A stretch of DNA of 64,000 bases, from contig OX442323.1 of assembly GCA_949358305.1 (NCBI GenBank), positions 620,001 to 684,000 on the forward strand. Direction: 5' to 3'. The position numbers and the translations under genes are program-made. Below the pieces are notes generated by a model. The model was given only the letters and a program-made list of their open reading frames with translations. It searched no databases and was not told the DNA's origin. Source of the stretch: Strigamia acuminata (Eukaryota; Arthropoda; Chilopoda; Geophilomorpha; Linotaeniidae). Positions 25,399-60,953 of this stretch are shown here, one piece after another. Numbering within the stretch: position 1 is the stretch's first letter; every line of letters starts with the position of its first letter.

Positions 25399-25400
25399 AG

Positions 25401-38520: not shown

Positions 38521-38525
38521 AACAG

Positions 38526-40120: not shown

Positions 40121-42101
40121 ATGGCGGATTCCGGCAAATCTCACCAATTTTCAATTCCACGACTGAACTCTGATAACTACGAATCTTGGTCCCGAAATAT
40201 CCAATTTTTGCTCTTGGAAAAAGGAGTAGATGATTTCATCTCAGAGAATCCTCCGGTCAGAGACGAAGCCTGGGATCAGCCTCGAAAACAGCTTCACGAC
40301 GACCGTTCAAAGCGTGCAAAAGCCTTGCTTGGCTTGTTTGTCGAGTCCCAATATCAGGACATTGTTCTTGCTGCGGACTCCGCACGTGACGCCTGGGTAG
40401 CCTTGAAAGCGACATTTCAGCCGACTTCTCTTGCCCGAATTGCTAAACTCCGCCGAGATTTCCTGATGATGCGTTTACTTCCGAATGAAGACATGTCAGT
40501 TTTCATTAGCCGTGTCACCAAAGCCCGTGCAGTTTTGAAGGACTTGGAAGTTACATTTTCGGATTCGGATGTCGCTTATCAACTTTTGGATTTGTTACCG
40601 GATTCATACGAGGCGACCGTGCAAACAATTTACCATTGGTCCAAAGCGGATTTCACATTAAAGGGAGTCTCCGACCATCTTCTCTCCGAATTTAATCGTT
40701 TGAAGATGAAGAATGCAGATTCGGGGTCATCGACTAGTTTACAGTCAGCGAGTTCGTCTTCGAGTGCACCGACGAGAGTTTTCAAGCCCTTGTCACAAAT
40801 TCAGTGCTTTAATTGCAAGGAAATGGGACACTATGCGAACAAGTGCCCCAAACCTCGAGTCCAGGGCGTTGCCTCTTCCAACTCGTCTACCAATCGTGGT
40901 CGCCGATCTTCGTCTCGGAACCGCAAAAGTGGACGCGGTAATGCAACACCACCTGCCCCGAGTGCTCAAAGTGTTTCAAGTGCAAGGTCCGGTTTAGGTT
41001 TCTTTGCACGGTCAGAATCCAACGTCGCATCGACTTCGTCTTTGGAATGGCTAATTGATTCGGGTTCATCTGATCACGTGTGTTGCCGTCGTGATTCTTT
41101 TTCGACGTACAAGCCCGTTTCGAATTATTTCATCATTTTGGGTGAAGGCCGTTCACGAGTTGATGGTATAGGTGACGTGGTTTTGCGGATTGGTCGTGGT
41201 GGCGCGAAAGGAGAATTTCCCGTCACAATGCATAATGTTCTTCATGCCCCCGCTTTTTCGCGTAATTTAGTCAGTTTGTCAAAGATTGATCGCGCCGGAC
41301 TACATTTTGTGGCTTCAAATGGTTTAATGACCATTTTTGATCCGTCCGACAAAGCCAAACAATTTCTTTTGCATGCCAAACTGAAGGATGATTTATATTC
41401 CCTTCAGCATGTCTTGCCCGCAGATTCTACATCTGCGCCGCTTCCTGCGCTTACGGCCACCTCAGTGGTCAAGCCGGTCCTCTCTGCGCAGACTGCTCGG
41501 CATGTCACTTTTGCCGAGGGACCTGCTTTATCCCCTCCTTGTAAACCCCCGAAGGGGAAGTTATCCGATTTAGAGCTTTGGCACCGGAGATTTGGGCATT
41601 TTAATACCGAAGGTTTACACTTTTTAGCGAAATCTCCGAATGCTTCCGGAATCGATATTTCGACTTCCGCATTTCCGGCATGTGCCGTGTGTGCTCGTTC
41701 TAAATCCACCCGAGCCTCGTTTCCGAGTGCAAAGAATAGAATTTCCAGTAAGAAGCCTTTGGATTTAATCCATATGGACGTTTGGGGAAATTCCCCAACT
41801 ACTTCCGTGGGTGGCGCTCGTTATTTATTAACGATCGTGGATGACTTTTCTCGCTATTCCTTTGTTGTCCCTATGAAAACGAAGGGGGAAGTTTTTGAAG
41901 TTTTTAAACTTTTCCATGCTCGGATGGAAACATTATGGGGGGCTGGCTGCATTAAAGCAGTCAGAACCGATAACGGGATGGAATTTTGCTCTAAAAATTT
42001 CGAAAATTTCTTGCTCCAGCGTGGCATCAAGGCACAGCGCACGAATGTTTATACACCTGAGCAGAATGGCGTTGCGGAACGCCTTAACCGCACCTTATTT
42101 G
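40121..42101 (+). pseudogene. Copia-2 gag-pol polyprotein, 5' part (split by Copia-3)
   Basis: ATG 40121 sits in GTCATGGCGG. It reads UBN2-type Gag (about residues 10-200), zinc knuckle CFNCKEMGHYANKC (about 229) and protease WLIDSGSSDHVC (about 309-320). The integrase zinc domain follows (LWHRRFGHF to CAVCARSK, about 484-530) and then the integrase core with IHMDVWG, RTDNGMEF and NGVAERLNR (about 551, 616, 650). It is cut in the codons for RTLF at the ATTTG target (42097-42101) and resumes at 48953. Gag and protease could still be made from this half. Confidence 0.94.
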
Positions 42102-42572
42102 TGTTGTTTATCGATGCCAAACAGTCCTCCGTACTTGTTTTGCGCATTTCTTAATGTATTACTGCATTATGCAGCCTAGTGTATTTATTAGGATTTATTT
42201 CATTATTTAACATTGGGCATAATGCTGCCTGCATCATGTTAGTATTAGTTTACTTTTTCCAACACCAGATGGTGTCACTTGTATGTTTTCTCACAATCAC
42301 AATGGCCGCTTGCATGCCAGCAAGCACTCATGTGTTTTCTCCACCTAAATGGACCACATTATGTAAGCATTTTCGTTTTTATTAAACATTTAGTTTATCT
42401 TTACATTGTGTTTGTCACTTATGAGCACTTTAGAGTGCAGTGACTTCATTTTCCACCATTTTCAAGCGCTGGAGGTGCGCGCACGTCATTGCGCTCATAT
42501 TAGCCGTGTTTCGGCATTTAAACTCGCTTCCACACACAGTATTTCATACTGTGAGCGCACTCCTCTGCTACA
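42102..42572 (+). repeat. Copia-3 5' LTR (471 bp)
   Basis: TGTTGTTTATCGATG to CTCTGCTACA; matches 48477-48947. It contains an internal dyad CACACAGTATTTCATACTGTGAG near its 3' end. Confidence 0.95.
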
Positions 42573-42574
42573 AG

Positions 42575-42586
42575 TGGTAGCAGAGG
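42575..42586 (+). promoter_or_regulatory. Copia-3 primer binding site, initiator tRNA-Met
   Basis: TGGTAGCAGAGG, 2 nt after the LTR, 12 nt complementary to initiator tRNA-Met. The LTR itself ends CCTCTGCTACA, which is the complement of most of this site, so LTR end and primer site can form a hairpin. Confidence 0.85.
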
Positions 42587-43447
42587 ATGGTTGCTATCCT
42601 TGCAGCACGCCGAAACCGCTAATTTTATCGCCATTTTCGCGAAATTCGCGAATTTGCGATAAATTTTCTATTTGCAGATTGCGTCGATTTCCGCGACGAT
42701 TTTCGTCTCTAGAACGTTCGAGACGACACGCCGACGTTCTCACGTAGTCTGCACGACCAGCTCTACGATTTTTCATTTAATTTCGTCCGAATTTCTGCGG
42801 GTTTCGCAATTTTCGAGACGAATTTCAATTTATTTTCAGATTTTCGCCATTTTCCAACGAGAATCAACGTTGGAAACCCGCTTTACACAGCGTGAACGAC
42901 GATTTGGACTAATTCCCGACTTAGTACACCGTGTACGGTCGTTGTATCGACGATTTTTCTCGAAGAAACGACGATTTTCGACGATTTTCGCATTTTAAAT
43001 GCGCAACAACGCCATTTTCGATTCTCGAATATTGGTGCAACGTTTCATCACACTAATTAATACTTGCCTTTCAGTTGTCGTAATTAGCTTGTTAGTATTT
43101 AAGGTCGTATTAAGTTTTTTGTGGGTCCTTTAGAATAGTTTTTGCTCTTCTGTTCCAGTCGGAACTACCGCATTAACTCATTCCTAGCCAGTGCTTACCG
43201 TGGCCAACAGGTACTCCCGCGCCTCCAGGCAGGCGAACGGACCCCTGTGTGTTGGCTGGCTAGGGTTATTTGGCCACTTCAGAAGTGGTCGCCCAATTCG
43301 ATTGATATCCGCTTTGACAGTGCTCCGATTAGTGCGCCGTATTTGTGTAGTGCTACGCGATATTGTGCACCGAGACCGTCAAGTGCTCCAATTGTACCAT
43401 TCTCCATCCAGTGTGTTTTGCTACGGGTTGTTTCGTAACTCCACGTC
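42587..43447 (+). other. Copia-3 untranslated leader
   Basis: About 0.86 kb without a supported ORF. Rich in CGATTTTCG-like motifs, as in the Copia-2 leader. Confidence 0.6.
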
Positions 43448-46400
43448 ATGTCGAAGTCCGCAGACGGAAATCCAGGACGTCTTCCCATCCTTAGCGTAGG
43501 AAACTACGAACTTTGGCAGCGCTCAATGCGCATGGTACTCCGAAGCGAGGAATTGTGGGAACACGTAACGGAAGAAGAGGAGGAAGATTTCCTTAAAACA
43601 GCTGGGGACAAAGAGAAAAAGAAGTACAAGCGTCGTAAAGCCAAGGCATTAGGCTTAATATACTGTTCTGTAAGCGAGGCGAAGAAGTCTGCGCTAGATG
43701 ATTGTAAAACCCCGAAGGAAGCATGGGACATTTTAGCCAACATTTATGCGCCATCATCTCGCGCACGACAGGCAGCCATGCGCCGGGAATTTTTGAATTT
43801 GCGCCTGGAGCAGGGCGAAGATATGGCCGACTTCTTAGGACGCGTTGACTATCATGTCCGCCAAATGAAGGATATCGGAGAGATAACTTCGTCTGATCGC
43901 CACGCTTACCAATACTTGGACTTATTGCCTCGTGAATATTCACAGATTTCATTCACGACATATCACTTGCCCAAAGGAGAATTTACACCAAAGAAAGTGT
44001 CTGAACAATTGCTCGCGGAACATATGCGACTCAAAGCTATGGATTCGCGCGACATAGACAATTCTAAATCTCCACGTGCCTATGCTGGTGAAAAACAGCA
44101 ACGTGGGAGAAATCGTTCTCGTCCCTCTCGACCGTTATCTTCGGTGCAGTGTTATAATTGCCAGGAATTTGGCCATTACGCAAATAAATGTCCTTTACCG
44201 CCGCGCCGAGATGACAAAAATCAACCGACAGCTTCACTTCAAAGGAAGCCAAGAAGTTCTAGCCGCAAACGCAACAAGAACTCAAACCGTGATGATTCGA
44301 GGCCAAGGGGGAATTCCAGCGCAAGGCGGAAAACAAACTTTTTCGCCAGTGCTCCGCAACAGTTGCCCACAATTCACTTCATGCAATCACATGAATGGAT
44401 AGTGGATTGTGGGGCAACGGATCATGTGTGCCACGTCCAGGCTTGGTTTCAGGACTTTGTTAAAGTTGTGCCCTTTAACATAGCATTAGGTCAAGGACAT
44501 TCCGAAGTTCTAGGAAAGGGCAAAGTCAAGATTATCTCCATGATCAACAACGTAGAATGTGTCGTAAATCTCCAAGATGTGTTGTATGCGCCAAAATTCG
44601 AGGCGAATTTGATTTCAGTGTCAAAAATGGACAAAACTAAACATCACATCCATATTTGGAATGGAGACGTCTATGTCTACAAATCCGACATTAAACATCC
44701 AATGCTTCGGGCCAAAGAAAAGGGCGGCCTTTACTATGTCGACGGCTTGTGCCCACCTTCAACACTGATGTCAACAGTGGATGTACCTATTGCGCAGTCA
44801 ATCGCTCCGACCCGAACATTAGTCACGACAGAAGAGGATTTCATCCAGTATCCAAGAGCAAAGAAAAAGTCGAAAAATCCTGAACTTTTTACTGATTTTC
44901 GGCTTGAATTCCCTCCTTTGCCAAATGAAATTCCTCCACCTGCACCAATCAAAGTAACCCAGTCCAAGACACCTCCTGTACCTGTTCCTACCAACCCATT
45001 ACCTCAAGTCCCATCCTTTGCCGACACATTAAAGGCAATTCCTCCAACTTCCAAACCGAATCTAAAGTCGGCGAATCAAAAGAAAGTTGCAGCGCCTACG
45101 GTTAAAAAGGATGCGACTGGGATATGGCACAGCAGATTGGGTCATCTTCACACCAATGCAATGAAACTTTTGGCCGGAAATGACCAAGTTTACGGGGTCA
45201 CACCGGCAGAAGTAAACAAAGAACTTTCATGTAATCATTGTCGAATTGCGAAATCAACGCGCATTTCTCATAAACCTGATGAACATCCTATTTCTACAAA
45301 GGCTTTAGATCTCCTACACATGGACGTGTGGGGAGCTTCAAGAACGACTTCCTACGGAGGCGCGCGTTATGTGTTAACGATTATCGATGACGCCACGCGC
45401 TATGCCTGGATATTTCCGATGGCCCAAAAATCCCAAGTGTTTGGACTCTTTAAGGACTATGTCACACGAATTGAACGAGTGACGGGCAAACGAGTCAAGG
45501 CCATCCGAACAGACCGAGGAGGGGAATTCTTATCAAACGAATTCGACCGCTATTTAAAGGAAACTGGGATTCAAGCCCAAAGGACCAATCCACATAGCCC
45601 CGCTATGAATGGCACAGCGGAGCGAATAAACCGCACCATGGCGGATTACACGCGTGCCATACTAGATGAAACTGGACTTCCAAACGAACTTTGGGCGGAA
45701 TTCGCAGTGACTTTCTCGTACATAAAGAACCGGTGTCCTCATTCTCGTCTCAAAAATGAGGTGCCCTATATCCTGTGGCGACGACGTGCCCTTTCGCTCA
45801 GACACTTGCGCAAGTTAGGCTCCAAGTGCTGGGTTCATCATACAGCGCCCGGCAGGGACAAATTGGATCCACGAGCTTGGGAGGGCTATTTAGTCGGCTA
45901 CGCCACGACAACGCGAGGTTATCGCGTCTGGAATCCAACAGATAACAAGGTTATCGAGTCCATTCACGTCAAAATAGATGAACGGCAGTCCTATAAACGC
46001 TCAAATCATTATCGAGGTCCACAGGAACCGTGGACAGGACCAGATTTGGACCAAACGCATCAAGCGTCGCAAATTTATGAACCATTGCGCATTTCACAAC
46101 CGCAAGTGAGATTTGACGACGAGTTGGAATATACCAATTGGCCCAAATTTCCGGATTCGGAAGATGAATGCGATACAGACTATGACTCTGACGATTCAGC
46201 TCCGCCAGGCGCTCAAGCCCGGACACCACCAGGGTCTCCAATTAGGATTCCAACACCTGTCCTATCTCCAATAATTTCTCCAGTGATATCTCGAGCGCCA
46301 AGCCCACTTATCACACCAGGTAATACACCAACTCACACACCGCCAGGAACACCACCGGGTTCACCACCATGTTTTGTGAACGCTCGTCGAGGTTCTCGTG

Positions 46401-48268
46401 GCAATGCGCCACAAGCCCATCCAGCAGCGCACCATGGTCCACCTCCAACTGGAGCTGCAACTGCATATAAATGGCGTTACATTGGTGGAGATACTGAGTG
46501 TAGACACTGGAAAAGGGAGGAACATTTGCGCAAAGTGCAGGAACCTGGCAAATTGAAAACAGATGTTTATTATTTCCCAGAAGCGGGACTCCGATTACGT
46601 TCTAGAGGTGAAGTTGAGGAATTCTGTCACATGAACAATATTCCTTATGATTCTGAACTGTTTTATTTTGGCAATATGGAATATGAATTGGAGGATCTTC
46701 CACAACCACTTCCCAGAGTGCACCTTTGTCGTCGTGATCCCACAAGTTACGCAGAGGCTGTAAGATTTCCGGATGCAACCAAATGGCAGGAAGCCATTAA
46801 TGAAGAGTTAGACACTTTTGCAGAAAGAGGCGTCTATGAAGAGGTCCCTAAACCGGAAAATACAACCATATTAGGGTGCAAGTGGCTCTTCAAACTGAAG
46901 GAAGATGCTCTAGGCAAGCCAGCAAGATATCGCGCCAGATTAGTGGCACAGGGTTTTCGTCAGACGTTAGGAGTAGACTATGATGAGGTATTCAGCCCTG
47001 TTGTCAACTTTGTTCTCATACGCCTATTTTTCTGCCTATTAGTAGTGCTTAAAGGGTGGAAGGACGCGCACTTAGATGTGAAATGCGCGTACCTATACGG
47101 CGATCTTGCGCACAAAGTATATATGCGCATTCCAGCTGGCGCAACATGTTCAAATCCAAATCACGTATGGCTCCTGATAAAGTCGCTCTACGGACTCCAT
47201 CAGTCCGGGCGCCAATGGTTTGAAAAACTGGATCAAACATTGCGCGATTTGGGATTTCGCAGATTACCAGGGTGCAACTGTGTGTACATATACGGAACTT
47301 CCGCCGTGATGCTAATATACGTCGATGATATAGTACTATTTCACGCGACGGATGGCATCCTGACGCAATTAATTGCTCTTATTAGCACCAAATTCGATGT
47401 CGTGAATTTAGGACCAATTACGAAACTCTTAGGTGTAGAGTTCATCCGTACTCCCAAGGGAATCTTCATCATCCAACGTGCATACATACAGAAGATTCTT
47501 AAGAAATTTGAAATTGTCGCCGATAAACTCATCAAGGTCCCAGTAACACCAGGAACGACGCTCGTCAAAGGGTCGAAAGAGGACTTGCCAGAATTTCCTT
47601 ATCGTTCGTTAATTGGCTCTCTTCTCTTCCTCGCATCGAGGACACGACCTGATATATTATTCTCAGTGATAATGTTATCACAGTTTAACAATTGCTATAA
47701 CCACACGCACATCAAGGCACTCATGCAGGTTGTGCGCTACGTAGGCAATACTTTGGATTACGCAATTGAACTATCAAATTGTTCCAATGGACAACTATGG
47801 GGATATACTGACGCGTCCTGGGCCACCGAAGTCAGCACTTCTTTGAGTTTCGGCGGATATATAGCCTATATTGGAAACGTCCCCATCGGATGGAGTTGTC
47901 GAAAACAGACCAGCGTGGCGTGCTCAACGATGGAGGCGGAGTTTGTCGCCCTCGTTGAGTGCGTCCGTGAGCTTTATTGGCTGGATTACGTCTACAGTTC
48001 CGTCCCGATGCTGAATAGATCTTCACCACCTTTAGTGTTCTCCGATGCGCTTTCTTCCATCCAATTCACATCAAATGACGTGGAGAACAGTAAAACGAAA
48101 CATATCCGAGTGAAATTTCATTGGATTCGGGAATGGTACACAGCAGGTGCATTCCAATTGCGCAAAGTCCCCGGATCAATGAACGTGGCAGACATCTTTA
48201 CCAAATGGTTGGGCTCATCTCAACTGCGTCTCCTGATTTCCCGGATTTTCAATTTCAACCTATCGTGA
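43448..48268 (+). CDS. Copia-3 gag-pol polyprotein with MBD-like domain (1,606 aa)
   Basis: One uninterrupted ORF, ATG in CACGTCATGTCG. In order: UBN2-type Gag (about residues 10-200); zinc knuckle CYNCQEFGHYANKC (about 235); and protease with WIVDCGATDHVC, where the usual D-S/T-G is D320-C321-G. The integrase HHCC domain is at about 558-605. The integrase core has LHMDVWG, RTDRGGEF and GTAERINR (about 623, 687, 721). A Pro/Thr-rich linker (about 918-998) leads to an MBD-like domain (about 1018-1077), then RT with LIYVDDIVLF (about 1288) and RNase H with GYTDASW (about 1451). It is some 240 residues longer than Copia-1, partly through the linker and the MBD-like insert. No internal stop. The Cys in the protease motif is the one active-site oddity. 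Confidence 0.96.
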   Translation: MSKSADGNPGRLPILSVGNYELWQRSMRMVLRSEELWEHVTEEEEEDFLKTAGDKEKKKYKRRKAKALGLIYCSVSEAKKSALDDCKTPKEAWDILANIYAPSSRARQAAMRREFLNLRLEQGEDMADFLGRVDYHVRQMKDIGEITSSDRHAYQYLDLLPREYSQISFTTYHLPKGEFTPKKVSEQLLAEHMRLKAMDSRDIDNSKSPRAYAGEKQQRGRNRSRPSRPLSSVQCYNCQEFGHYANKCPLPPRRDDKNQPTASLQRKPRSSSRKRNKNSNRDDSRPRGNSSARRKTNFFASAPQQLPTIHFMQSHEWIVDCGATDHVCHVQAWFQDFVKVVPFNIALGQGHSEVLGKGKVKIISMINNVECVVNLQDVLYAPKFEANLISVSKMDKTKHHIHIWNGDVYVYKSDIKHPMLRAKEKGGLYYVDGLCPPSTLMSTVDVPIAQSIAPTRTLVTTEEDFIQYPRAKKKSKNPELFTDFRLEFPPLPNEIPPPAPIKVTQSKTPPVPVPTNPLPQVPSFADTLKAIPPTSKPNLKSANQKKVAAPTVKKDATGIWHSRLGHLHTNAMKLLAGNDQVYGVTPAEVNKELSCNHCRIAKSTRISHKPDEHPISTKALDLLHMDVWGASRTTSYGGARYVLTIIDDATRYAWIFPMAQKSQVFGLFKDYVTRIERVTGKRVKAIRTDRGGEFLSNEFDRYLKETGIQAQRTNPHSPAMNGTAERINRTMADYTRAILDETGLPNELWAEFAVTFSYIKNRCPHSRLKNEVPYILWRRRALSLRHLRKLGSKCWVHHTAPGRDKLDPRAWEGYLVGYATTTRGYRVWNPTDNKVIESIHVKIDERQSYKRSNHYRGPQEPWTGPDLDQTHQASQIYEPLRISQPQVRFDDELEYTNWPKFPDSEDECDTDYDSDDSAPPGAQARTPPGSPIRIPTPVLSPIISPVISRAPSPLITPGNTPTHTPPGTPPGSPPCFVNARRGSRGNAPQAHPAAHHGPPPTGAATAYKWRYIGGDTECRHWKREEHLRKVQEPGKLKTDVYYFPEAGLRLRSRGEVEEFCHMNNIPYDSELFYFGNMEYELEDLPQPLPRVHLCRRDPTSYAEAVRFPDATKWQEAINEELDTFAERGVYEEVPKPENTTILGCKWLFKLKEDALGKPARYRARLVAQGFRQTLGVDYDEVFSPVVNFVLIRLFFCLLVVLKGWKDAHLDVKCAYLYGDLAHKVYMRIPAGATCSNPNHVWLLIKSLYGLHQSGRQWFEKLDQTLRDLGFRRLPGCNCVYIYGTSAVMLIYVDDIVLFHATDGILTQLIALISTKFDVVNLGPITKLLGVEFIRTPKGIFIIQRAYIQKILKKFEIVADKLIKVPVTPGTTLVKGSKEDLPEFPYRSLIGSLLFLASRTRPDILFSVIMLSQFNNCYNHTHIKALMQVVRYVGNTLDYAIELSNCSNGQLWGYTDASWATEVSTSLSFGGYIAYIGNVPIGWSCRKQTSVACSTMEAEFVALVECVRELYWLDYVYSSVPMLNRSSPPLVFSDALSSIQFTSNDVENSKTKHIRVKFHWIREWYTAGAFQLRKVPGSMNVADIFTKWLGSSQLRLLISRIFNFNLS
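46502..46680 (+). other. MBD-like domain within the Copia-3 polyprotein
   Basis: Encodes HWKREEHLRKVQ, then KTDVYYFPEAGLRLRS and RGEVEEFC. The pattern W-x-R-E, a basic R two residues before the turn, D-V-Y-Y-F, L/F-R-S and a following helix is that of methyl-CpG-binding domains. The equivalents of the DNA-contacting Arg, Asp, Tyr and Arg of MBD proteins appear to be present. It lies between integrase and RT. No search was possible. Confidence 0.72.
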
Positions 48269-48476
48269 CATTCTTAATTTAGTTTTACCGGAATTTTGAG
48301 GATCATCGAGTTCCAGTGGGAATTTTCGGGCTTCCGTAGTGATTTATATAACAGTACCCGGCTCGATGTTCCGAATTATTATTTCCATTATTATTATTCT
48401 ATGTAAAGTTACATTTAAAGTTTTTCCCTTAACTTATTCTTTATTTTTGCGGCTATTTGCCATCGAAGGGGGAAAT
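48269..48476 (+). promoter_or_regulatory. Copia-3 3' untranslated region with polypurine tract
   Basis: GAAGGGGGAAAT (48465-48476) abuts the 3' LTR and is the likely plus-strand primer. Confidence 0.8.
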
Positions 48477-48947
48477 TGTTGTTTATCGATGCCAAACAGT
48501 CCTCCGTACTTGTTTTGCGCATTTCTTAATGTATTACTGCATTATGCAGCCTAGTGTATTTATTAGGATTTATTTCATTATTTAACATTGGGCATAATGC
48601 TGCCTGCATCATGTTAGTATTAGTTTACTTTTTCCAACACCAGATGGTGTCACTTGTATGTTTTCTCACAATCACAATGGCCGCTTGCATGCCAGCAAGC
48701 ACTCATGTGTTTTCTCCACCTAAATGGACCACATTATGTAAGCATTTTCGTTTTTATTAAACATTTAGTTTATTTTTACATTGTGTTTGTCACTTATGAG
48801 CACTTTAGAGTGCAGTGACTTCATTTTCCACCATTTTCAAGCGCTGGAGGTGCGCGCACGTCATTGCGCTCATATTAGCCGTGTTTCGGCATTTAAACTC
48901 GCTTCCACACACAGTATTTCATACTGTGAGCGCACTCCTCTGCTACA
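48477..48947 (+). repeat. Copia-3 3' LTR (471 bp)
   Basis: Matches the 5' LTR. Followed by ATTTG at 48948-48952 and the rest of the Copia-2 coding region. Confidence 0.95.
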
Positions 48948-48952
48948 ATTTG

Positions 48953-51444
48953 AAGGCGTGCGTTCCTTGTTTTTGATGACGTCTTTGCCTCGAGAATTGT
49001 GGGCTGAGCTCGCGGTTTCAATGATTTATCTCAAGAATCGCTTTCCACATAAATCTCTGAACAACCTTATCCCCTATTGTCTGTGGTACAATAAGGCTGT
49101 TCCACTCAAGCACTTAAAAGTGATTGGGTCAAGGTGTTTCGTGCACATACCACAACAGGTCCGTGGTTCAAAATTCGAGTCTCGAGCCTGGACGGGTGTA
49201 GTTGTTGGCTATGCTTTGCGCACGCGAGGTTATCGCGTGTGGTGCCCAAAGCGCCGTGCAGTGTTTGAGTCAAAGCATGTTCGTTTTGATGAAAACTGCA
49301 TGTGGGGACATCCTCGTTTTTATGAGGGTACTGAGGTAACTGATGAGGGAGCTATATCGGTGACATTAGATTCGGATTTCGATTCCGATCCACCTCTTCC
49401 TCCACCTCCTCCTCAACGTCCCCCCAATCTTCCTCCGCTTTCTTATCCTCCTCCACCTTCTTATCCTCCTCCTCCACCGCCTGTGGTTACTCGACCTTCG
49501 GCGCAAGCGCATCCGTTGCCTACACCACCTACTATTGCCTCGCCACTAAATCAGCCTCAGCCTTCTACTTCGGCTGTGGGGGGCAAGTGGACTCGCTCCG
49601 AGGTGATTCGGCAGTCTGGTGCGACTATGGGAAACACTGATGTGTATTTTTATCCCCCGGATCATACCAGATTACGGAGTCATGTTGACGTTGCGCAATA
49701 TTGCGCAGATCATCGATTAGCATATGACCGGGATAATTTTGACTTTTGCACCCGGAACGTGCCTGTTTGCACGGTTGATCCCCCTCCGGCAGATCCAACT
49801 GCTTTTCCTCTTCCTAGTCCTACGGCTTCAGAAGATGAAGCATTAGGGGATTGCTATTCTGCTACACCACGGTACGCGCACTCCTTATTTGCCCAGGTTC
49901 CTCGCACCTATAAGGAAGCTATTGCAAGTCCCGACCGTGTCCATTGGCAGAAAGCCATGGAGGAAGAGCTTTCACTCTTCCGTGAGCGAGGTGTTTACGA
50001 AGAGGTTGAGAAACCTCCTTCTAATGTGAACATTGTGGGGAATAAATGGGTTTACTACATCAAGCGCGATGCAGAAGGCGTCGTGCGCCGTTTTAGAGCG
50101 ATGTTGGTTGCCCAGGGCTTTAGCCAAAAGTTCGGAGTCGACTATTCCGAGGTTTTCAGTCCCGTGGTTAACTATGTGCTTATACGCCTGTTTTTCGTGC
50201 TTCTAGTAGTCGTTTTAGGCTGGCTAGATGCACATCTCGATGTCAAGGGTGCTTATTTATATGGCAACTTAGATGAAGCTATCTTCATGAGAATTCCTAA
50301 GGGCTGGGAAACTCCTCAGAATGCCGGTAAGGTATGGAGGCTTCATAAGGCCCTTTACGGCCTTCATCAGAGCGGACGGCAATGGAATTTCCGCCTAGTT
50401 GAGGCTTTGCTAGGGATTAATTTCCACAAGCTTCTTGGGATTAATGGCGTATTTATTTCCAACACTTATGATGCTGTCATCCTTGTTTATGTTGATGACA
50501 TGGTACTTTTCACCAAAGGACAAGATCCGCGTGATCGAACTGTTAAGGCCCTTCGTACAATTTTCACGATAACAGATTTGGGTCCGGTATCGAAGTTGTT
50601 GGGCGTCCAATTTGATCGCGATGGTGGTAAAATCTGCATCCATCAGCGCGATTACATTGATAAGATTGCTGAAGACTACGAAATTTCCTCCGAGCATTTG
50701 TGCAAAGTCCCGATTACCGTTGGCACGATGGTCAATTGTGCTAGAGATGGTGAACGTGTTTTGAGGGATGATGAATTCCCATATCGGTCTCTCATTGGGT
50801 CTCTGCTCTTTCTAGCTTCTCGAACGCGTCCCGATATCCTCTTTCCAGTTATCCTTATGTCACAATATAACACGTGCTTTACTGGAAGGCACGTGGCCCT
50901 TTTGCTACAGATCCTCCAGTATGTGAAGAATACGCGGGAATATTCAATTCAGCTTTCCGCGGTCACTGGAGATATTCTATCAGGGCACTCCGATGCTTCT
51001 TGGATCTCAGATCGAGATACAAGAAAGAGCTTCGGAGGTTATACGATTTCGGTGTTCGGGGTTCCCATTTCCTGGGGTTGCTGTAAGCAACGCTATTGCG
51101 CCTTGTCCATTATGGAAGCGGAATTCCTAGCGCTTTTGGACGGTGCAAAGGAAATTGTCTGGCTTCATGGTGCGATTGAGCGGACCCGGATTTTTCAACT
51201 TCCGGCCCCAACCATGTTCTCTGATTCTCTGTCGACGATTTTTTTCACCCGCAACGATATAGAGAATCGGAGGACAAAGCACATTGACGTGAAATTCTTT
51301 TTCCTGCGGGATTGGCTAAATGAGGGTGTTTTTGTTTTGAGGAAAGTTTCAGGTGAATTAAACCCTGCGGACATCTTCACAAAATTTTTCTCGCCCGCCC
51401 GCATTCGATATTTATGTCAACATTTTTACAGTAGTTTGCGATAG
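48953..51444 (+). pseudogene. Copia-2 gag-pol polyprotein, 3' part with MBD-like domain
   Basis: Resumes the integrase frame at EGVRSLFLMTSLPRELW; open frame upstream in the Copia-3 LTR is not part of it. It continues through the integrase C-terminus (ending near SKHVRFDE), a Pro-rich linker (about 49383-49560), an MBD-like domain (49582-49758), RT with LVYVDDMVLF (about 50487) and RNase H with GHSDASW (about 50985), and stops TAG at 51444. The joint with the 5' part keeps the frame once a single ATTTG is counted. Confidence 0.94.
49582..49758 (+). other. MBD-like domain within the Copia-2 polyprotein
   Basis: 59 residues: GKWTRSEVIRQSGATMG, then NTDVYFYPPDHTRLRS, a helix-like VDVAQYC and a closing DNFDFCTR. 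This follows the MBD pattern closely: W-x-R-x-E-V-x-R-x-SG, D-V-Y, L-R-S, F-D-F. It is at the same place, between integrase and RT, as in Copia-3, and the two segments differ at many positions, so the motif is conserved while the rest has drifted. Confidence 0.78.
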
Positions 51445-51511
51445 GTTTTCGCATTTACTTTTGTTATATCTTGTTATATGATTGAGTCATGTCTCGGAGA
51501 ATGGGGGGCTC
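51445..51511 (+). promoter_or_regulatory. Copia-2 3' spacer with polypurine tract
   Basis: GGAGAATGGGGGG (51496-51508) lies 3 nt before the 3' LTR and is a likely plus-strand primer. Confidence 0.7.
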
Positions 51512-51791
51512 TGTTGGCTTTTGTTCTCCGAGATTTGTGATATGCAATTGATTATTGATGTTACACATGTTTGATTTGTAATTATTTATGATTTTATAGT
51601 TTATTATCATGTAAACATTGATGTATCAATTGGGTTACCGTAGTTGGAGTTGTTTTTTAACTGCTTAGCAACTGTTGTTATTACTTGTTCTCTTGTTGTT
51701 GATTTTTCTCCATGCTTGCATGAGATGATTAAATCTTGTTCTTTTACTCACTTTTGGCCTGGAATTTGTTCATCAATCCATACTTTCAACA
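51512..51791 (+). repeat. Copia-2 3' LTR (280 bp)
   Basis: Matches 38526-38805; followed by the AACAG duplication (51792-51796). Confidence 0.95.
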
Positions 51792-51796
51792 AACAG

Positions 51797-52314: not shown

Positions 52315-52858
52315 TGTTACGAGCGCAGACCTCGCTGTACGACAGCGGGCCTAAACGCTCTGTTTAGAGAATTAATTCTGAAAGCTCTCACTAGGCACAC
52401 TGGGGTTTCCAAATCCGCTCACCAGTTGTCACTGTGTTAATTATGCACAGGGCAACTGGACTAATCAATCAAGTAGAGCGGGGGTGGACCCAGAGTTTAC
52501 CTGGTGAGCTAAGTGGGTTTGAGAGAGCAGAAATGTTCTGAGCCTCAAACAGTTAACATGGTAAGTAAAGGCTTCTGTGGACCAGCGCACACAGCGCTTG
52601 GTCCCACCCCGCCTTTCCAAATTCATAGAGATATAATTTGATTATCATTCTTGCTTTCTTGCTTTATGTTTATGTAAAATAAAGGATTATGTTTATCATT
52701 TGATTTTGTTAAGTTTGTAATAAGTCCCATAGAATAAAAGAGATTTATTTAAATGATAAATCAGTTCTCTCAATCATTTCACCTAAAGGATTTCAAGGTC
52801 TTTGCTAAATTAATTAGCATTTGTTATGTGTGTGGATCACCCCAACCCACACGTAACA
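52315..52858 (+). repeat. Gypsy 5' LTR (544 bp)
   Basis: TGTTACGAGCGCAG to CCACACGTAACA; matches 60406-60949. An AATAAA is at 52679-52684 (TAAAATAAAGG). Confidence 0.95.
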
Positions 52859-52861
52859 AAG

Positions 52862-52875
52862 TGGTGGAGATGCGG
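52862..52875 (+). promoter_or_regulatory. Gypsy primer binding site, probably tRNA-Ala
   Basis: TGGTGGAGATGCGG, 3 nt after the LTR, fits the complement of an animal tRNA-Ala 3' end (acceptor GGGGATG with a wobble pair). The identification is from memory of tRNA-Ala. Confidence 0.6.
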
Positions 52876-53637
52876 AATTAAAAGACCCTGTATAATTGCT
52901 TTATTTAAGAGCTAAAATGTTAGTAAAAATCTGGAATTTTGAGTAAAATAGTTGAAAATTTGTCCCTGAAAATGAGTAAGGTTGAGAAAGCAAATTGCCT
53001 ATAATATTATCAGATTTGAAAGCAAATAAAGAGACTTGTGAAAATCAATTTTAGTGTGAAAATTGAGAATTGGGAATGAATATTTAATTGTTTTGTGTGA
53101 AAATGTTGAATATTTAATTATCTTGTGTAAAAGTGTTGAATATTTAAGTGTTTGAGTTGAAACTGAGCATGAATGTTAAATGAGTTTGCATGTTACTGAA
53201 TATTTAATTAGTTGAAAACAATTAAACAGTATTTTAGAATTAAAGCCTAGTTTTAATGATAAATCATTTTAAGGTTATACATATTTTGAATAATTTTAAG
53301 AATTGTAAATAGTTTTAAAACAATTTTAACTCATGCACAGTTATAAGTAATAATATTATGAATTATTTTCTTTTCTCCTTAGCATGGTGAAAGTGTTTTA
53401 GTGATTAGTGTTTCACAGGTGAGGTGAATTTGTGTTTTGTGAGTGTGTGCCTTCTATGGTTGGAGTGGATCCATATTGAAGCTGGATCCTTCAAATATAA
53501 CATTTCGCAAGAAATCATCAAGTATAATTGCGGAAGACAGAGAGCGACACTACACATTAACAACAGAATTCAAGTCTGATGAACATTTGGATAGTGAGAT
53601 AGAACCAGAGGATAGTGAACCTCTAGAAGAAGTCAAG
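52876..53637 (+). other. Gypsy untranslated leader with candidate splice donor
   Basis: AT-rich and without a long ORF. CAG/GTGAGG at 53416-53424 matches a splice-donor consensus and could join the acceptor before ORF3. A short upstream ORF (ATG 53456, stop ending 53479) precedes gag. The open gag frame before 53638 contains no ATG. Confidence 0.5.
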
Positions 53638-54705
53638 ATGGCGACTAGCTCAACTGCAACGTTGGAAACCCTATTAAAAGGACTAGTAGTGCAAAAGCGC
53701 AATCCAGTCAATTATGATACCAAAACGGGGAACATTGACGAATGGATTGTTGGTTATGAAGCGATTGTTGCTACGGATACGGAACGTGCCAAGCATCTGC
53801 CGATTGTAATGAAGGAAGATGCGCTCTCCTGGTACGTCGAGCAGCTACAAGCTAACCCTAGCTGGGCTTGGGACGAATGGAAAGCAGCATTGCAGAAAAA
53901 ATTCCGCCGTAGGCCCGAGCACGTCCTCAATACCCTACACGCCCTTAAGCATGAAGAAGGGACAGCCATTGACTTTATTAAGAAAGTTCTCCACTTGTGT
54001 TCATTTGCCAGACCAGCCCTCAGTGAAACCCAGAAAATCAACTATGTCTATCAGGCTATGAAACAGCCGATAAAAGACAGGTTGATGACAGTTTTTCCTA
54101 CAGCTATGGATGATTTGATGGAAAGAGTTCAGCTTTATGAAGCCCATGGAGTGAAGGAAGATTCGTCGACAGCTTTACTGACCCTTGTACAGAAACTTGT
54201 GGCTGACAAGGCGACCGTCGCACCGTCAACTTATTTGACTGGAGTGGCAGAAGCCCCAAAGTCGCTCGCAGAACTTGTAGCAGAAAACAACTTTCTAAAA
54301 GAACAGAATATGTTTTTGCAGAATGGCGTATTGCAAGAGACGATCTCTCCAATTTTCCATCAAGGGACTTGGTTTACCCCAGTCAACAATCAGCGTCAAG
54401 GAGGAAAATTTTTCCAAGGAACCCAGCAGAAGCAGCAGCAATTCCAGCAAAGTTCTCCGCAGAACTGGCAGAATTTTCAGCAGCAGCAAACTGGACCCGG
54501 ATGTTTCCATCAGCCCAACTGCACCTGCTGTGCGTCACAAAACAGAGGTGGCGGTGGGAAGAGGCGTGATACTTGGCGTTATAATAATAAGAATAATGAA
54601 GAAAATAACAGTAACCAAGGAAATGGTCCTGCTAACAATAACAGCGGTAATAACCAAGCAAGAAATCCACCTGGGAATCAAAAACAACAGAACCGGGGAA
54701 ACTAG
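53638..54705 (+). CDS. Gypsy Gag (355 aa)
   Basis: ATG at 53638 (AAGATGGCG) is the first in-frame ATG. Residues about 20-190 resemble the retrotransposon Gag capsid family (Retrotrans_gag): DEWIVGYEAIV, SWYVEQLQ, WDEWKAALQKKFRRR. No CCHC zinc knuckle is evident. Instead the C-terminal 100 residues are Gln/Asn/Gly-rich with scattered Cys/His (CFHQPNCTCC) and basic patches, likely for nucleic-acid binding. The frame ends in tandem TAG TAG at 54703-54708, directly after a slippery heptamer. Confidence 0.88.
   Translation: MATSSTATLETLLKGLVVQKRNPVNYDTKTGNIDEWIVGYEAIVATDTERAKHLPIVMKEDALSWYVEQLQANPSWAWDEWKAALQKKFRRRPEHVLNTLHALKHEEGTAIDFIKKVLHLCSFARPALSETQKINYVYQAMKQPIKDRLMTVFPTAMDDLMERVQLYEAHGVKEDSSTALLTLVQKLVADKATVAPSTYLTGVAEAPKSLAELVAENNFLKEQNMFLQNGVLQETISPIFHQGTWFTPVNNQRQGGKFFQGTQQKQQQFQQSSPQNWQNFQQQQTGPGCFHQPNCTCCASQNRGGGGKRRDTWRYNNKNNEENNSNQGNGPANNNSGNNQARNPPGNQKQQNRGN
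54696..54702 (+). promoter_or_regulatory. Programmed -1 frameshift site, GGGAAAC
   Basis: In the gag frame it reads G GGA AAC then TAG, the canonical X XXY YYZ heptamer placed directly before the gag stop. Slipping back one base continues CTA GTA GTG CCA and enters the open pol frame. The two frames overlap from 54570 to 54705. Confidence 0.85.
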
Positions 54706-57700
54706 TAGTGCCACAAAGACAGTTAAAAAGTAGGCGTAGGAGAAGAAGAATGAGAAGGAAGTTGGAAATAGTTGACATTAACACCACTGAAGAAATGCTG
54801 ACAATACCTGTCGTAGTGAACAATTTAGAAGTCAAAGGTGTATTGGATTCAGGTGGATATAGAAATATTATAAGTGAGGAACTGGCTGATAGATTGCAAC
54901 TGTCACGTCGGCTTTGCCCTTATATCAAATTGAGGGTAATTGATAACTCCTTAATATCTCCTGAAGGAATTGGGAAAATTACAGTCACTATTGGAAGATT
55001 GGACTACAGCATGGAGGTATTAGTAGTGCGGGGATTTGGTCATGAGCTCTTACTAGGTGATCCTTTCCTCAAACAAGCAGGGTGTGTGTTGGACTATGAC
55101 CGACGGAAGGTCTTTGTGGGGCGAAAAAGTGAAGGATTTAAACCGGAAGTTTTTCCAATGTCAAGAAATTATCTGGAACAAACATTTATTGGCAGACTTA
55201 CTAAATCAATAAAAATTCCAGCAATGCACGAATGCATGCTTTTCATTGGAGTGAACAATAATAAAACCAATGAAGATTTGTTTGCAGAGCCATTATCCAA
55301 TTTGACTGATAGATTGGGAGTAATTGGCTGTAAAACTCTAACTACATTTAAGGATGGATCAGGCATAATGCGAGTTGCGAATCCGACGAAGAAGGCGGTT
55401 TATCTGCAGAAAGGAACAGCGATTGCCAAGGCATACCACGTCATTGACATTGGTAGTTTTGAGGAGCAGCCACCTAATGGCTTGAACTTTGATTCCGCCG
55501 TGTCAAGTGATCTACTGGATACAAACCAAAAGGAGCAGCTGAAGAGCCTACTGCGTAAGAATGAAGATAGATTTGCCACTTCAGATCAGGATTTAGGCAG
55601 AGTAAAGGTCTACAAGCATAAAATAGACACAGGTGATGCACAGCCAATTCACCTGCAGCCATATCGCCGATCCATGAAAGAGAAAGAAGTCGAAGCAGAG
55701 GAAACCCAGAAACTGCTTGAAATGGATGTAATCAGAGAGTCCGAGAGTCCATGGAGTGCGCCAGTGCTTTTAATTAAGAGACGTGATGGCAAATGGCGGT
55801 TTTGTGTTGATTGGAGGCGGCTGAATGCAGTGACTAAGAAGATGGTTTACCCACTCCCCCGAATCGACGACACCTTAGACCAACTGTCAGGTGCGAAGTA
55901 TTTTTCCATGATGGATTTAATCCAGGGATATTTCCAAGTCGAGATTGATGAGGAGGATAAGGAAAAGACTGCGTTCACAACGTCTTCCGGTCATTACGAA
56001 TTTAATGTACTGGGCCAGGGCTTGTGTAATAGTCCTGCGGCATTCCAAAAGCTCATGAACAAAGTGCTTGGTAACCTCCTAGGAAAAGTGTGTATAGCCT
56101 ACTTGGACGATCTGATCATCTTTTCAAAGACATTCGACCAGCATTTGGTTGATTTAGACAACGTCTTTTCGAAATTGCGCACGGCGAATTTAAAGGTCAA
56201 ATTAAGTAAATGCACTTTTGGAACGGATACCATTAAGTATTTGGGACACGTCATCAATGCAAAAGGAGTTTCACCGGATCCACGTAATTTGGAGTCCGTG
56301 GCGAAGTTCCCAAAACCAACAACAGTAAAGCAGTTGCAAGGATTTCTTGGATTATGTTCTTATTATCGCAAATTTATTCGTGGTTTTTCAGACGTGTCCA
56401 AGTGCCTTGTAAATCTGACAAAGAAAGAAGAAAAGTATGATTGGGGACCGCCACACGATGAAGCGTTCCAGAAGCTGAAGACGGCCCTAACGACAGTTCC
56501 AGTGCTGGCTCATCCAAATTTCAGCGAGCCCTTTATGATCTCTACTGACGCCAGTGCATATGGATTAGGAGTTGTGCTGAAACAAAAGATAAATAAACAA
56601 GAACATGTCGTAGCCTACGCTAGCCGACTGCTTAGCAAAGCAGAGCAGAATTATGATACGACAGAACGTGAGTGCCTTGCGATCATCTTTGGCATACAAA
56701 AGTTCCGACCTTACTTGTATGGCCAAAAATTCTACGTTATTACGGACCATTCAGCGTTGCAGTGGCTCAAAACTGTGAGAAATCCCAACGGACGACTCAC
56801 CAGATGGTCACTCCAATTGGTGGACTATGACTATGAGGTCATTCACAAGAGTGGTAAAAAACATCAAGATGCAGATGCGTTAAGTCGTATTCCTGAGGCA
56901 GTGGGCGAAGAAGAAATAATTGATTTACCTTTGTTGCTACTGGAAAATCTGGACCTACCTGCCGAGCAGCGAAAGGATCAGAAGCTGAAGGAATACGTTG
57001 ATGCACTTCGAGATATTGAGCGCCTTTCGAAAAAGAAGAGACGATCTTTACAACAGTTCGTGCTCCAGGATGAAGTTTTGTTCAGAAGGAAGAATTTCCT
57101 GGGCAACGAAAGGTTACTGCTGGTTGTGCCAAAACACTTACAGCAAGATGTTCTGCACGAGATGCATGATGGCCTTCCAGGAGCTCATCTGGGCCTGTCG
57201 AAAACTTGGAAAAGAATAAGCACCAGATTCCATTGGCCCAGAATTTATGCAGAGGTCAGAGACTACGTCTTGTCCTGCAAGAAGTGCGCTGCAGCAAAAA
57301 CAGATACCACACCACCAAAAGGATTATTGCAGCCCTGGACAACCGTGACCAGACCATTCCAAAGAGTAGGAATGGACACTTTAGGAAAATTCCCGACTTC
57401 AAAGAAAGGGAATAATTATGTGTTTGTTATGACGGACTATCTATCTAGAGCGGTCTGTGCGAGAGCGTCACCAACTTGCACGGCCATTGCAGCAGCGGAT
57501 GCTTTAGTTTATGAGATAATGGTGAAAGAAGGATCTCCAAGGGAAATTCTGACTGACCGTGGTACAGAATACAGAAATGAATTGATGGAGGAGGTCTCGA
57601 GACTCTATAAATCAAAACATAAAACAACTAGCGGATATCATGCCAGGACAAACGGTTTAACGGAGCGTTTTAACGCAACACTTGCGAAAATGCTTCTGAA

Positions 57701-58607
57701 CTACGTAAATGAAGATCATACGGACTGGGATGATTTCCTGCCACACCTGTTATTCTCGTACAACACGTCGGTTCACGAGACAACTGGATATACCCCATAC
57801 TTTTTATTAAGGGGGTATGAAGCAGATGTTAACGTCGATGTGAATCTGAATCTCCCGAAGAAGGAATTCACTTTGAGAACTGCCAAATTCATCGAGGCAG
57901 CAAGGAGAATCTCAAACCAGAGACTGGAGCAGATGTCAGCTAAAAGCAAAGAAAGATTTGATAAGAACAGAAAGGTTGTGGAGTTCGAGCCTGGAGAATA
58001 CGTTTATTTGAAAAAACCGAACAGAAAGGTTGGACTCAGTGAGAAATTACTGCCACAATATTCTGGTCCTTACGAAATAGTGCGCCGAACTGCACCAAAC
58101 GATTACCAAATAGTAGATTCAACTGGTAAAAAATCAGACATTGTAAATGTAGAAAGGTTAAAACCTTACAAGCCAAGGAAAGAAGTATCCATAATTATGG
58201 ATAGGAATAGTGAAACTGAGGTGAAGGCGGAAAATTCTAACAAAACTAAGTTGATGGAAAGTAAAGGAATTGAAGAAGTTAGAATTAACACTAAAAAATC
58301 ACTAAAACAATCAAAAAAACCATGCACAGAAAGATTCATAAGTGATGAAGATCAGATTTCTTTAAAGTCGTTGTTCGAACCGGAGGAGACGACGGGAAAA
58401 CGGTTGAAAGAATTGCCGCTGGTCGGCGATAAAGACGAAACGTCGGAGAAACGTTTGACGAAATTGCCACTAGATGGCGATAAAAGAAAAACGTCAGGAC
58501 AGCGTTCGCGGAAATTGCCACCAGAGGGCGTCGTCGACGAAACACGTGACTTCCGTTTTAAGCATTTAAGACCGCGAGCACGGACGAATTATCGTCAGTT
58601 CTACTGA
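54702..58607 (+). CDS. Gypsy Pol (protease, RT, RNase H, integrase)
   Basis: The pol frame is entered by -1 frameshift at 54702; no ATG opens it (it carries GTG at 54708). In order: aspartic protease with GVLDSGGYRNIIS (about residue 47); RT with WRFCVDWRRLN, LIQGYFQVEI and AYLDDLIIF (about 466); RNase H with STDASAYGLG (about 610) and TDHSALQWL. The integrase HHCC domain is at about 820-865. The core has GMDTLGKF, LTDRGTEY and GLTERFNATL (about 890, 950, 985), followed by a GPY/F-like module (QYSGPYEIVRR, about 1120). The Lys/Glu-rich C-terminal tail holds three 17-residue repeats (58404-58556). No breaks. Confidence 0.95.
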   Translation, partial: LVVPQRQLKSRRRRRRMRRKLEIVDINTTEEMLTIPVVVNNLEVKGVLDSGGYRNIISEELADRLQLSRRLCPYIKLRVIDNSLISPEGIGKITVTIGRLDYSMEVLVVRGFGHELLLGDPFLKQAGCVLDYDRRKVFVGRKSEGFKPEVFPMSRNYLEQTFIGRLTKSIKIPAMHECMLFIGVNNNKTNEDLFAEPLSNLTDRLGVIGCKTLTTFKDGSGIMRVANPTKKAVYLQKGTAIAKAYHVIDIGSFEEQPPNGLNFDSAVSSDLLDTNQKEQLKSLLRKNEDRFATSDQDLGRVKVYKHKIDTGDAQPIHLQPYRRSMKEKEVEAEETQKLLEMDVIRESESPWSAPVLLIKRRDGKWRFCVDWRRLNAVTKKMVYPLPRIDDTLDQLSGAKYFSMMDLIQGYFQVEIDEEDKEKTAFTTSSGHYEFNVLGQGLCNSPAAFQKLMNKVLGNLLGKVCIAYLDDLIIFSKTFDQHLVDLDNVFSKLRTANLKVKLSKCTFGTDTIKYLGHVINAKGVSPDPRNLESVAKFPKPTTVKQLQGFLGLCSYYRKFIRGFSDVSKCLVNLTKKEEKYDWGPPHDEAFQKLKTALTTVPVLAHPNFSEPFMISTDASAYGLGVVLKQKINKQEHVVAYASRLLSKAEQNYDTTERECLAIIFGIQKFRPYLYGQKFYVITDHSALQWLKTVRNPNGRLTRWSLQLVDYDYEVIHKSGKKHQDADALSRIPEAVGEEEIIDLPLLLLENLDLPAEQRKDQKLKEYVDALRDIERLSKKKRRSLQQFVLQDEVLFRRKNFLGNERLLLVVPKHLQQDVLHEMHDGLPGAHLGLSKTWKRISTRFHWPRIYAEVRDYVLSCKKCAAAKTDTTPPKGLLQPWTTVTRPFQRVGMDTLGKFPTSKKGNNYVFVMTDYLSRAVCARASPTCTAIAAADALVYEIMVKEGSPREILTDRGTEYRNELMEEVSRLYKSKHKTTSGYHARTNGLTERFNATLAKMLLNYVNEDHTDWDDFLPHLLFSYNTSVHETTGYTPYFLLRGYEADVNVDVNLNLPKKEFTLRTAKFIEAARRISNQRLEQMSAKSKERFDKNRKVVEFEPGEYVYLKKPNRKVGLSEKLLPQYSGPYEIVRRTAPNDYQIVDSTGKKSDIVNVERLKPYKPRKEVSIIMDRNSETEVKAENSNKTKLMESKGIEEVRINTKKSLKQSKKPCTERFISDEDQISLKSLFEPEETTGKRLKELPLVGDKDETSEKRLTKLPLDGDKRKTSGQRSRKLPPEGVVDETRDFRFKHLRPRARTNYRQFY
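58404..58556 (+). repeat. Three 51-bp tandem repeats at the end of pol
   Basis: Each encodes 17 residues: LKELPLVGDKDETSEKR, LTKLPLDGDKRKTSGQR and SRKLPPEGVVDETRDFR. In frame and diverged, so they are an old expansion. The preceding EPEETTGKR may be a partial fourth. Confidence 0.85.
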
Positions 58608-58729
58608 ACCCGTCTTACCGTAAACTCGACCTGATCGAGTGATAAAGTGAGATAGGTGAATTAAACTGTTGAATTTTGGATTGAATTTGGACTTAGAAAT
58701 TGTTTGAATTTTGAGTTGGATTTTAACTT

Positions 58730-58743
58730 AGAAAATTTTTCAG
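58730..58743 (+). promoter_or_regulatory. Candidate splice acceptor before ORF3
   Basis: GAAAATTTTTCAG ends 2 nt before the ATG at 58746. Its position is like that of env acceptors in gypsy retroviruses and would give ORF3 a subgenomic mRNA. Confidence 0.5.
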
Positions 58744-58745
58744 CA

Positions 58746-60092
58746 ATGGAAAATTTGAAGATTGCGCGTGACTCGGACGAGGATTCAAATGCGTCGCACG
58801 AATCGAAGATATTTCATACAGTGTATACCCGACGAGAGAACGAATTTCCCTTGCGTGACGAAGAAATTGAGCAGTTGCCGAGGATTAGGGAAATTGATGA
58901 TTTAATTGTGTGTGAGCGACCATTTACAGATCGAAACAAAGTTCCGGTTGGTACAGTGGATAAGCGAACAATGATGACGCCACGCCAATTAAAGAAGTAC
59001 GAACATAAACGAAATTCACGTCATCGACGGCAAGCTTCGAAACGATTGGATGCAAGGACGGAGATCGCTCTTGAGTCGGAGAAGGGATTAAAATTCATGA
59101 GAAAAAGGCAAGTCCGAGCGAAACAACAGCAGGAACGCCGATTAGGAGAAGTTCGACAGGAACGAAAAAACATCATGGCGGCAACTAAGGAAAAGAACTT
59201 GACCGGAACTCCGGGATGGAGCGGCTACACGGCGTGGTTGCGTGTGGAGACGGATTTGGCGCTGAAGGAGGCAGAAATTCGAAAGAAAAAGCAGCGAGCG
59301 GAGGCGCTGATGAGGCGAAAATTCAGGAACGATCCCGATGTTGACTTACCGTCGGCTTTGCGAACTTATCGCGTAGGCTTGACGGTGAGCCAGCAAACGG
59401 AAATTCAAGAATGGAGCGCGACATTTGCGGATGTGAATTCGGGGATGGAATGCTTCACGACGCCAAACCGGGAAATCGTGGTGACAGCAGGTGAGATGGC
59501 GTCATTGCTGCGATTGATGCCGGGCCGGGATTCATGGGTTTTCGACTCGGTTGTCGATTATTACCTAAACATCGTGACTTCGGATCCGGCCTATCGACGT
59601 GTTTTCGCGTTTCCAACTGCTGCCGTGCAGTACATGATCAGACGGCAATATAATGAAGCAAGAGCTGTAATGAACGGATTTTATCCAAGACCGACTCACA
59701 AGGTTTGGGTAATCCCGATGGGAATACCCGAACATTGGCAGCTGGCCATCGTCGATTTTACGCGCCCAAGGACGGAGGTGGCCCTGTTCGACCCAAGCGG
59801 CCCATTAACGATGAAGGATATAAGATGGCAGGCTGTGTTAAATGGTTTGGCGAGTTTTAACATCCAGCTCAACCAACTCCACCCATTTGAAGCGCCGGCG
59901 ATTGGCCAACTGGACGGGGACAGTTGTGGCCCAACCATCTTATATTTCGTGCGCCGATATCTAGTTGACCGCGACCTAATGCTTCCAGCGCTCCCTTACG
60001 ATTTAAGAAGCCGAATTGCGTTGGAGATCATTAAAGATCAACTAATACCTTTCGAGGAGGACGTGACAATTGAAGAAATCGAAGAAGATTAA
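58746..60092 (+). CDS. Gypsy ORF3: Ulp1-like (C48) cysteine protease (448 aa)
   Basis: Not recognized as an envelope: I see no signal peptide and no membrane segment. Residues about 70-190 are very basic and probably coiled (KKYEHKRNSRHRRQASKR and similar). Residues about 255-440 fit the Ulp1/adenain cysteine-protease fold. There is WVFDSVVDYYL, then the active-site set H330 (PEHWQLAIVDF), D349 (ALFDPSG), Q388 and C394 (GQLDGDSCGP), with normal spacing. Ulp1 enzymes cut SUMO/ubiquitin-like proteins or, in viruses and some transposons, other substrates; the target here is unknown. An in-frame ATG at 58704 would add 14 residues but lies before the likely splice acceptor. It is in the same frame as pol, 138 nt after the pol stop. 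Confidence 0.85.
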   Translation: MENLKIARDSDEDSNASHESKIFHTVYTRRENEFPLRDEEIEQLPRIREIDDLIVCERPFTDRNKVPVGTVDKRTMMTPRQLKKYEHKRNSRHRRQASKRLDARTEIALESEKGLKFMRKRQVRAKQQQERRLGEVRQERKNIMAATKEKNLTGTPGWSGYTAWLRVETDLALKEAEIRKKKQRAEALMRRKFRNDPDVDLPSALRTYRVGLTVSQQTEIQEWSATFADVNSGMECFTTPNREIVVTAGEMASLLRLMPGRDSWVFDSVVDYYLNIVTSDPAYRRVFAFPTAAVQYMIRRQYNEARAVMNGFYPRPTHKVWVIPMGIPEHWQLAIVDFTRPRTEVALFDPSGPLTMKDIRWQAVLNGLASFNIQLNQLHPFEAPAIGQLDGDSCGPTILYFVRRYLVDRDLMLPALPYDLRSRIALEIIKDQLIPFEEDVTIEEIEED

Positions 60093-60949: not shown

Positions 60950-60953
60950 ATAT

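Follow-up and report, generated by a model that had tools for sequence, protein, structure and literature searches.

A methyl-CpG-binding domain in copia retrotransposons of Strigamia acuminata and its possible role in integration into CpG-dense DNA

Between the integrase and the reverse transcriptase of a Ty1/copia retrotransposon, here called Copia-2, lies a short coding segment that raised the question of whether a mobile element can recognise the CpG content or methylation of its host's DNA and choose its landing sites by it. The element is found in a window of 64,000 nucleotides (the whole stretch of DNA that was analysed), which was taken as part of chromosome 9 of Strigamia acuminata, a genome of 237.5 Mb. 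The two LTRs of Copia-2 are 99.64% identical, and its coding region is split within the integrase by the insertion of a second element, Copia-1 (Table 1), with LTRs of 99.8% identity and an ORF of 1609 aa at 43439-48268; the ORF that contains the 3′ half of Copia-2 (48769-51444 as listed) has its start within a Copia-1 LTR. A 140-bp satellite, nearly CpG-free (mostly 1-3 per kb), occupies window positions 1-11571 (81.7 copies) and 34707-37543 (20.4 copies), and BEL/Pao copies in opposite orientations, with LTRs of 1473 bp, lie at 11577-34666, one of them interrupted by Copia-3. A gypsy element with identical LTRs follows at 52315-60950; its second ORF (58665-60092, 475 aa) gave no Pfam match, and the terminus of this ORF, judged by eye, resembles a Ulp1/C48 cysteine protease (D-S-C-G). 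A very CpG-rich 56-bp satellite is present at 61939-62642, with a CpG observed/expected ratio (o/e) of about 3 in the surrounding DNA.

Table 1. Features of the copia elements in the window; positions are those of the window.
Feature	Position	Strand	Details
Copia-3, MBD-less copia, control	25194-29951	+	LTRs 205 bp, 100% identical
Copia-2, whole element	38526-51791	+	280-bp LTRs, target duplication AACAG
Copia-2 5′ LTR	38526-38805	+	AACAG target duplication at 38521-38525
Copia-2 coding region, 5′ half: gag, protease, integrase core	40025-42101	+	ORF, Pfam, LTR boundary
Copia-1, complete, nested in Copia-2	42102-48947	+	LTRs 42102-42572 and 48477-48947; target duplication ATTTG
Copia-1 MBD, more diverged	46508-46663	+	Pfam MBD 27.2 bits isolated, 21.4 bits in whole ORF
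Copia-2 coding region, 3′ half: integrase end, MBD, RT	48948-51444	+	ORF, LTR boundary
Copia-2 integrase C-terminal SH3-like domain	49090-49305	+	Pfam SH3_retrovirus 88.1 bits, aa 108-179
Copia-2 MBD	49585-49758	+	Pfam MBD, aa 273-330 of ORF 48769-51444
Copia-2 reverse transcriptase	49996-50715	+	Pfam RVT_2 191.8 bits, aa 410-649
Copia-2 3′ LTR	51512-51791	+	AACAG target duplication at 51792-51796

The original prediction held that 59 residues encoded at 49582-49758 resemble a methyl-CpG-binding domain (MBD), and these residues are indeed present in the frame that had been given. When the segment alone was compared with the Pfam profile PF01429, residues 3-58 matched with 39.8 bits and an E-value of 3.4e-10, where the cut-off is 21 bits; within the whole ORF the score was 35.3 bits. 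The closest sequences in the PDB, searched with phmmer, were those of MBD1 (E 2.7e-7) and MBD2 (E 4.3e-7), and in the phmmer alignment R10, D20, Y22 and R32 of the segment line up with the corresponding residues of MBD2, which we take to be DNA contacts, so that the predicted retention of the contact residues Arg, Asp, Tyr and Arg was borne out. Structure prediction from the single sequence, with no alignment, was poor (pLDDT 47.0), but an AlphaFold2 model built from an input alignment of 21 copies reached a pLDDT of 78.4, and its top 43 neighbours in the PDB (Foldseek ranks 1-43) were all MBD/TAM structures, three of them with E-values of 0.001 or less. Examples are MBD4 (4lg7, rmsd 1.4 over 55 columns) and MBD2 (6c1a, rmsd 2.1 over 53 columns). 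The predicted place of the domain was likewise correct, since the SH3-like end of the integrase lies upstream of it and RVT_2 downstream. These results confirm that 49585-49758 encodes a true methyl-CpG-binding domain. A tblastn search for the domain in phage records gave no match.

Related elements turned out to be abundant. The domain occurs at no fewer than 150 genomic places, as all 150 matches that were scored, out of 1,092 candidates, pass the Pfam cut-off, and many of these 150 sit in ORFs of 1,500-1,640 aa. It should be kept in mind that the genome match lists used throughout hold the top 40 or top 150 entries out of larger numbers of candidates and hence sample the best-scoring lineages. 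The MBD-bearing copias form several diverged lineages. Copia-3 had no Pfam MBD match, and no listed MBD match is found within 3 kb of any of the 150 top RVT_2 matches in the genome. In 21 of 21 aligned domains the Trp, both Arg and the Ser that follows the second Arg never vary. At the Tyr position there is Ile (10) or Val (5) in lineages that supplied 15 of the 20 loci fetched, while Copia-2 and Copia-1 retain all four contact residues. For the MBD, dN/dS was 0.04-0.14 in 6 of 14 pairs, the remaining 8 being saturated, which supports the retention of the domain under purifying selection. Three other origins of the segment could be set aside: a chance resemblance, by the E-value of 3.4e-10, the at least 150 genome copies and the fold; an insert private to a single copy, by the genome-wide matches; and a decayed relic, for Copia-2 and its relatives, by the low dN/dS of those six pairs and the 99.64% identity of the LTRs.

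A possible link between the domain and integration is seen in the DNA next to the insertions. Flanks of 400 bp were taken to the left of LTR-defined copies for four families, which are young by the 99.6-100% identity of the LTR pairs of their window copies. The sample came from 13 of 23 merged places for Copia-2, 15 of 24 for Copia-1, 18 of 22 for gypsy and 18 of 20 for Copia-3 (19 flanks, 18 of them unique). For the 28 flanks of Copia-2 and Copia-1 the median was 9.25 CpG per 100 bp, with a CpG o/e of 1.38; the 36 flanks of the MBD-less Copia-3 and gypsy gave 2.88 and 0.85 (p=1.0e-9 for CpG per 100 bp). The difference was found against Copia-3 alone or gypsy alone (p about 4e-7 each), and persisted when related flanks were removed (23 vs 36, p=2.0e-8); in GC-matched subsets the CpG o/e was again higher for the MBD families (6 vs 16 flanks, p=0.002; 12 vs 9, p=0.014). 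Most gypsy flanks have ATAT at their end, and for this reason gypsy is not a composition-neutral control. The CpG excess is flat across the 400 bp, with no peak at the insertion, and CpG richness is therefore a property of the region and not of the exact site. Three of the 14 fetched Copia-1 flanks consist of the 56-bp CpG-rich satellite that is also present in the window, and the BEL copy of the window adjoins the CpG-free satellite.

Location along the chromosomes gave a less specific picture. Among the matches listed, 57 of 134 MBD matches are located no more than 2 Mb from a chromosome end, against 13 of 147 for RVT_2 and 18 of 145 for BEL, and on autosomes only the numbers are 41 of 111 for MBD against 10 of 135 for RVT_2 (p=1e-8); these tests treat the matches as independent, although copies are related. 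Eight autosomes have end-located MBD matches among those listed, six of them at one end only and two with a split of 6 to 1. For the individual families, with LTR matches less than 17 kb apart merged, the comparison of Copia-1 plus Copia-2 (19/39) with Copia-3 plus gypsy (11/41) was not significant (p=0.064). Moreover, all 34 chromosomal LTR matches, among the best 40, of the MBD-less BEL family of the window fall in the terminal 2 Mb of a chromosome, with 26 on the Y, and an end location is thus not special to elements with an MBD. The better evidence is CpG density rather than end location.

A lineage with an altered domain (loci L111, L022+ and L024+) complicates the relation between the MBD and the flanks. 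It has a domain at the same place in the polyprotein, which is not recognised by the Pfam MBD profile at E-values up to 1 (two isolated domains) or, in the L111 ORF, up to 0.05, but is connected by a profile made from four copia MBDs with 17-22 bits. The Tyr is replaced by Glu and the loop is altered; the Asp is either lost or preceded by a shortened loop, depending on the alignment. L111 itself has an open frame of 1533 aa and identical LTRs, and in an RT tree (15 sequences, a single outgroup) it falls outside the other MBD copias with a support of 0.93. Flanks of 150 bp (n=19, from 19 of 25 places counted among the best 40 matches) had a median of 10.0 CpG per 100 bp, indistinguishable from Copia-1/Copia-2 (p=0.72) and far above the controls (p=5.7e-8). 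The Ile lineage, with eight flanks of 150 bp, had a median of 7.0 (p=5e-4 vs controls), while its CpG o/e in the same eight flanks did not differ significantly from that of the controls (p=0.086). CpG-dense landing is therefore a property of the clade for which the canonical Tyr is not required, and since the L111 lineage keeps it, intact methyl-reading residues may be unnecessary for it. Either the altered domains still bind CpG via the two invariant Arg, or the bias comes from the integrase or from a host factor. The result is the chief evidence against a simple account in which the domain reads methylation. In chromosomal distribution, 83 of the 144 listed matches of this lineage lie on the X or Y (33 and 50), compared with 23 of 150 MBD and 12 of 150 RVT_2 matches (best 150 each).

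In the host genome, exons of DNA methylases were found at five loci (L009-L018), of which L009, L010 and L012 look DNMT1-like by eye in translations of the plus strand. This is in line with the congener Strigamia maritima, for which published work gives four Dnmt1 and one Dnmt3 and a high peak of gene-body CpG o/e centred at 1.48 (PMC4244043), a value close to the 1.38 of the MBD-family flanks. According to a second report, a proportion of 0.758 of 719 transposable elements of S. maritima belongs to a highly methylated group (PMC7343188).

Taken together, the MBD of Copia-2 and Copia-1, elements of the CopiaMBD kind of arthropod Ty1/copia retrotransposons, most likely (with a probability of roughly 0.7) binds CpG-dense DNA and steers integration to CpG-rich, repeat-rich regions. 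The domain, an MBD of animal type, would be made jointly with the integrase and would bind DNA dense in CpG, which in this genus is presumably methylated, and the bound domain would then direct integration into such regions. This reading is favoured by the domain and its fold, the number of copies, the invariant Trp, Arg and Ser residues, the low dN/dS, the CpG-dense flanks, the end bias relative to RVT_2 and BEL, the DNA-methylase loci of the host, the methylation of transposable elements in S. maritima and the reported binding of an S. maritima CopiaMBD domain to methylated, CpG-dense DNA. We infer from these observations both that the MBD is the cause of the CpG-dense pattern and that methylated CpG is what it responds to. 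The original prediction that the domain could steer integration toward or away from methylated DNA is supported in part: there is an MBD fold next to the integrase, it is under purifying selection, and the insertions are strongly biased to CpG-dense DNA. The Tyr-less lineages, one of them with a domain that Pfam does not recognise, land in CpG-dense DNA too and weaken the case for methylation as the cue. Those lineages lend some weight to the idea, on balance doubtful, that the domain reads CpG density and not methylation, two Arg fingers contacting the CpG guanines being sufficient, with part of the clade independent of methylation. Unlike the Tyr, both Arg are the same in all 21 aligned domains, and the L111 and Ile lineages, with Glu and Ile at this position, have the CpG-dense flanks given above; all four residues are, however, retained in Copia-2 and Copia-1, and the S. 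maritima domain reportedly bound methylated DNA. As the young Tyr-less lineages and the one without a recognisable MBD keep both Arg and CpG-dense integration, a methylation reader may, tentatively and against the odds, have become a CpG-density reader more than once in the CopiaMBD clade, with targeting partly independent of methylation.

The CpG preference could also reside in the integrase or in a host factor bound to it, with the MBD serving for tethering after integration, for expression or for evasion of silencing. That a lineage in which Pfam recognises no MBD has the bias too, and that the bias is flat over 400 bp and uncentred on the insertion, would fit such an arrangement, but Copia-3, which belongs to the same superfamily and lacks the MBD, has no such bias (it is a distant control), and the low dN/dS of the MBD also speaks against it; we regard it as unlikely. 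A case without any targeting, in which random insertions persist where selection and recombination remove the least, is improbable. Such refuges are typically found at repeat-rich chromosome ends and on sex chromosomes, the L111 lineage has more than half of its listed matches on the X or Y, and the MBD-less BEL elements cluster as well. Yet all four families compared are young, only those with an MBD have CpG-dense flanks, and the window BEL copy adjoins a satellite that is free of CpG. Retrotransposons that steer by host epigenetic marks are a direct case of selfish elements exploiting host chromatin. With a chromosome-scale genome, many young copies, control families lacking the MBD and natural variants of the domain, S. 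acuminata makes it possible to ask what the MBD does (reading methylation, reading CpG density, or playing no part in targeting) without an engineered element.

The original prediction knew of no described copia lineage with an MBD, but such elements were published in 2019: de Mendoza, Pflueger and Lister (Genome Res 29:1277-1286) reportedly described CopiaMBD elements of S. maritima and of a spider, with an S. maritima domain that is said to have bound methylated CpG-dense DNA and elements that are said to accumulate where CpG is denser than around other LTR elements. No earlier report of CopiaMBD in S. acuminata was found in the open-licence literature. Measured against this description, Copia-1 and Copia-2 are of the CopiaMBD kind by three features: the order gag-PR-INT-RT of a Ty1/copia polyprotein (by Pfam, in one ORF for Copia-1 and in two separately scanned halves for Copia-2), an MBD above the Pfam cut-off of 21 bits in the polyprotein (39.8 bits for Copia-2, 27.2 for Copia-1) and young copies in CpG-denser DNA (28 vs 36 flanks, p=1.0e-9). 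Their MBD therefore marks an already known type of element, here in a species congeneric with its described host S. maritima. The S. maritima elements reportedly share with ours the capture of an MBD by a Ty1/copia element, the genus and CpG-denser insertions than other LTR elements; the present analysis differs in the species, in the comparison of Ile, Val and Glu lineages and in the mapping of landing sites on chromosomes, and the behaviour of the altered-domain lineages may be new. The host proteins MBD1, MBD2, MBD4 and MeCP2 have the same fold, and Copia-2 shares the four contact residues, but unlike in these proteins its MBD stands in a retrotransposon polyprotein in which a Pfam scan revealed no other chromatin-protein domains. 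A targeting module after the integrase is also known from the chromoviruses, which are Ty3/gypsy elements with an integrase chromodomain, and from Ty5, which has a motif that binds a silencing protein. The copias described here have the same arrangement in a superfamily other than that of the chromoviruses, with an MBD in place of the chromodomain or of the silencing-protein-binding motif of Ty5.
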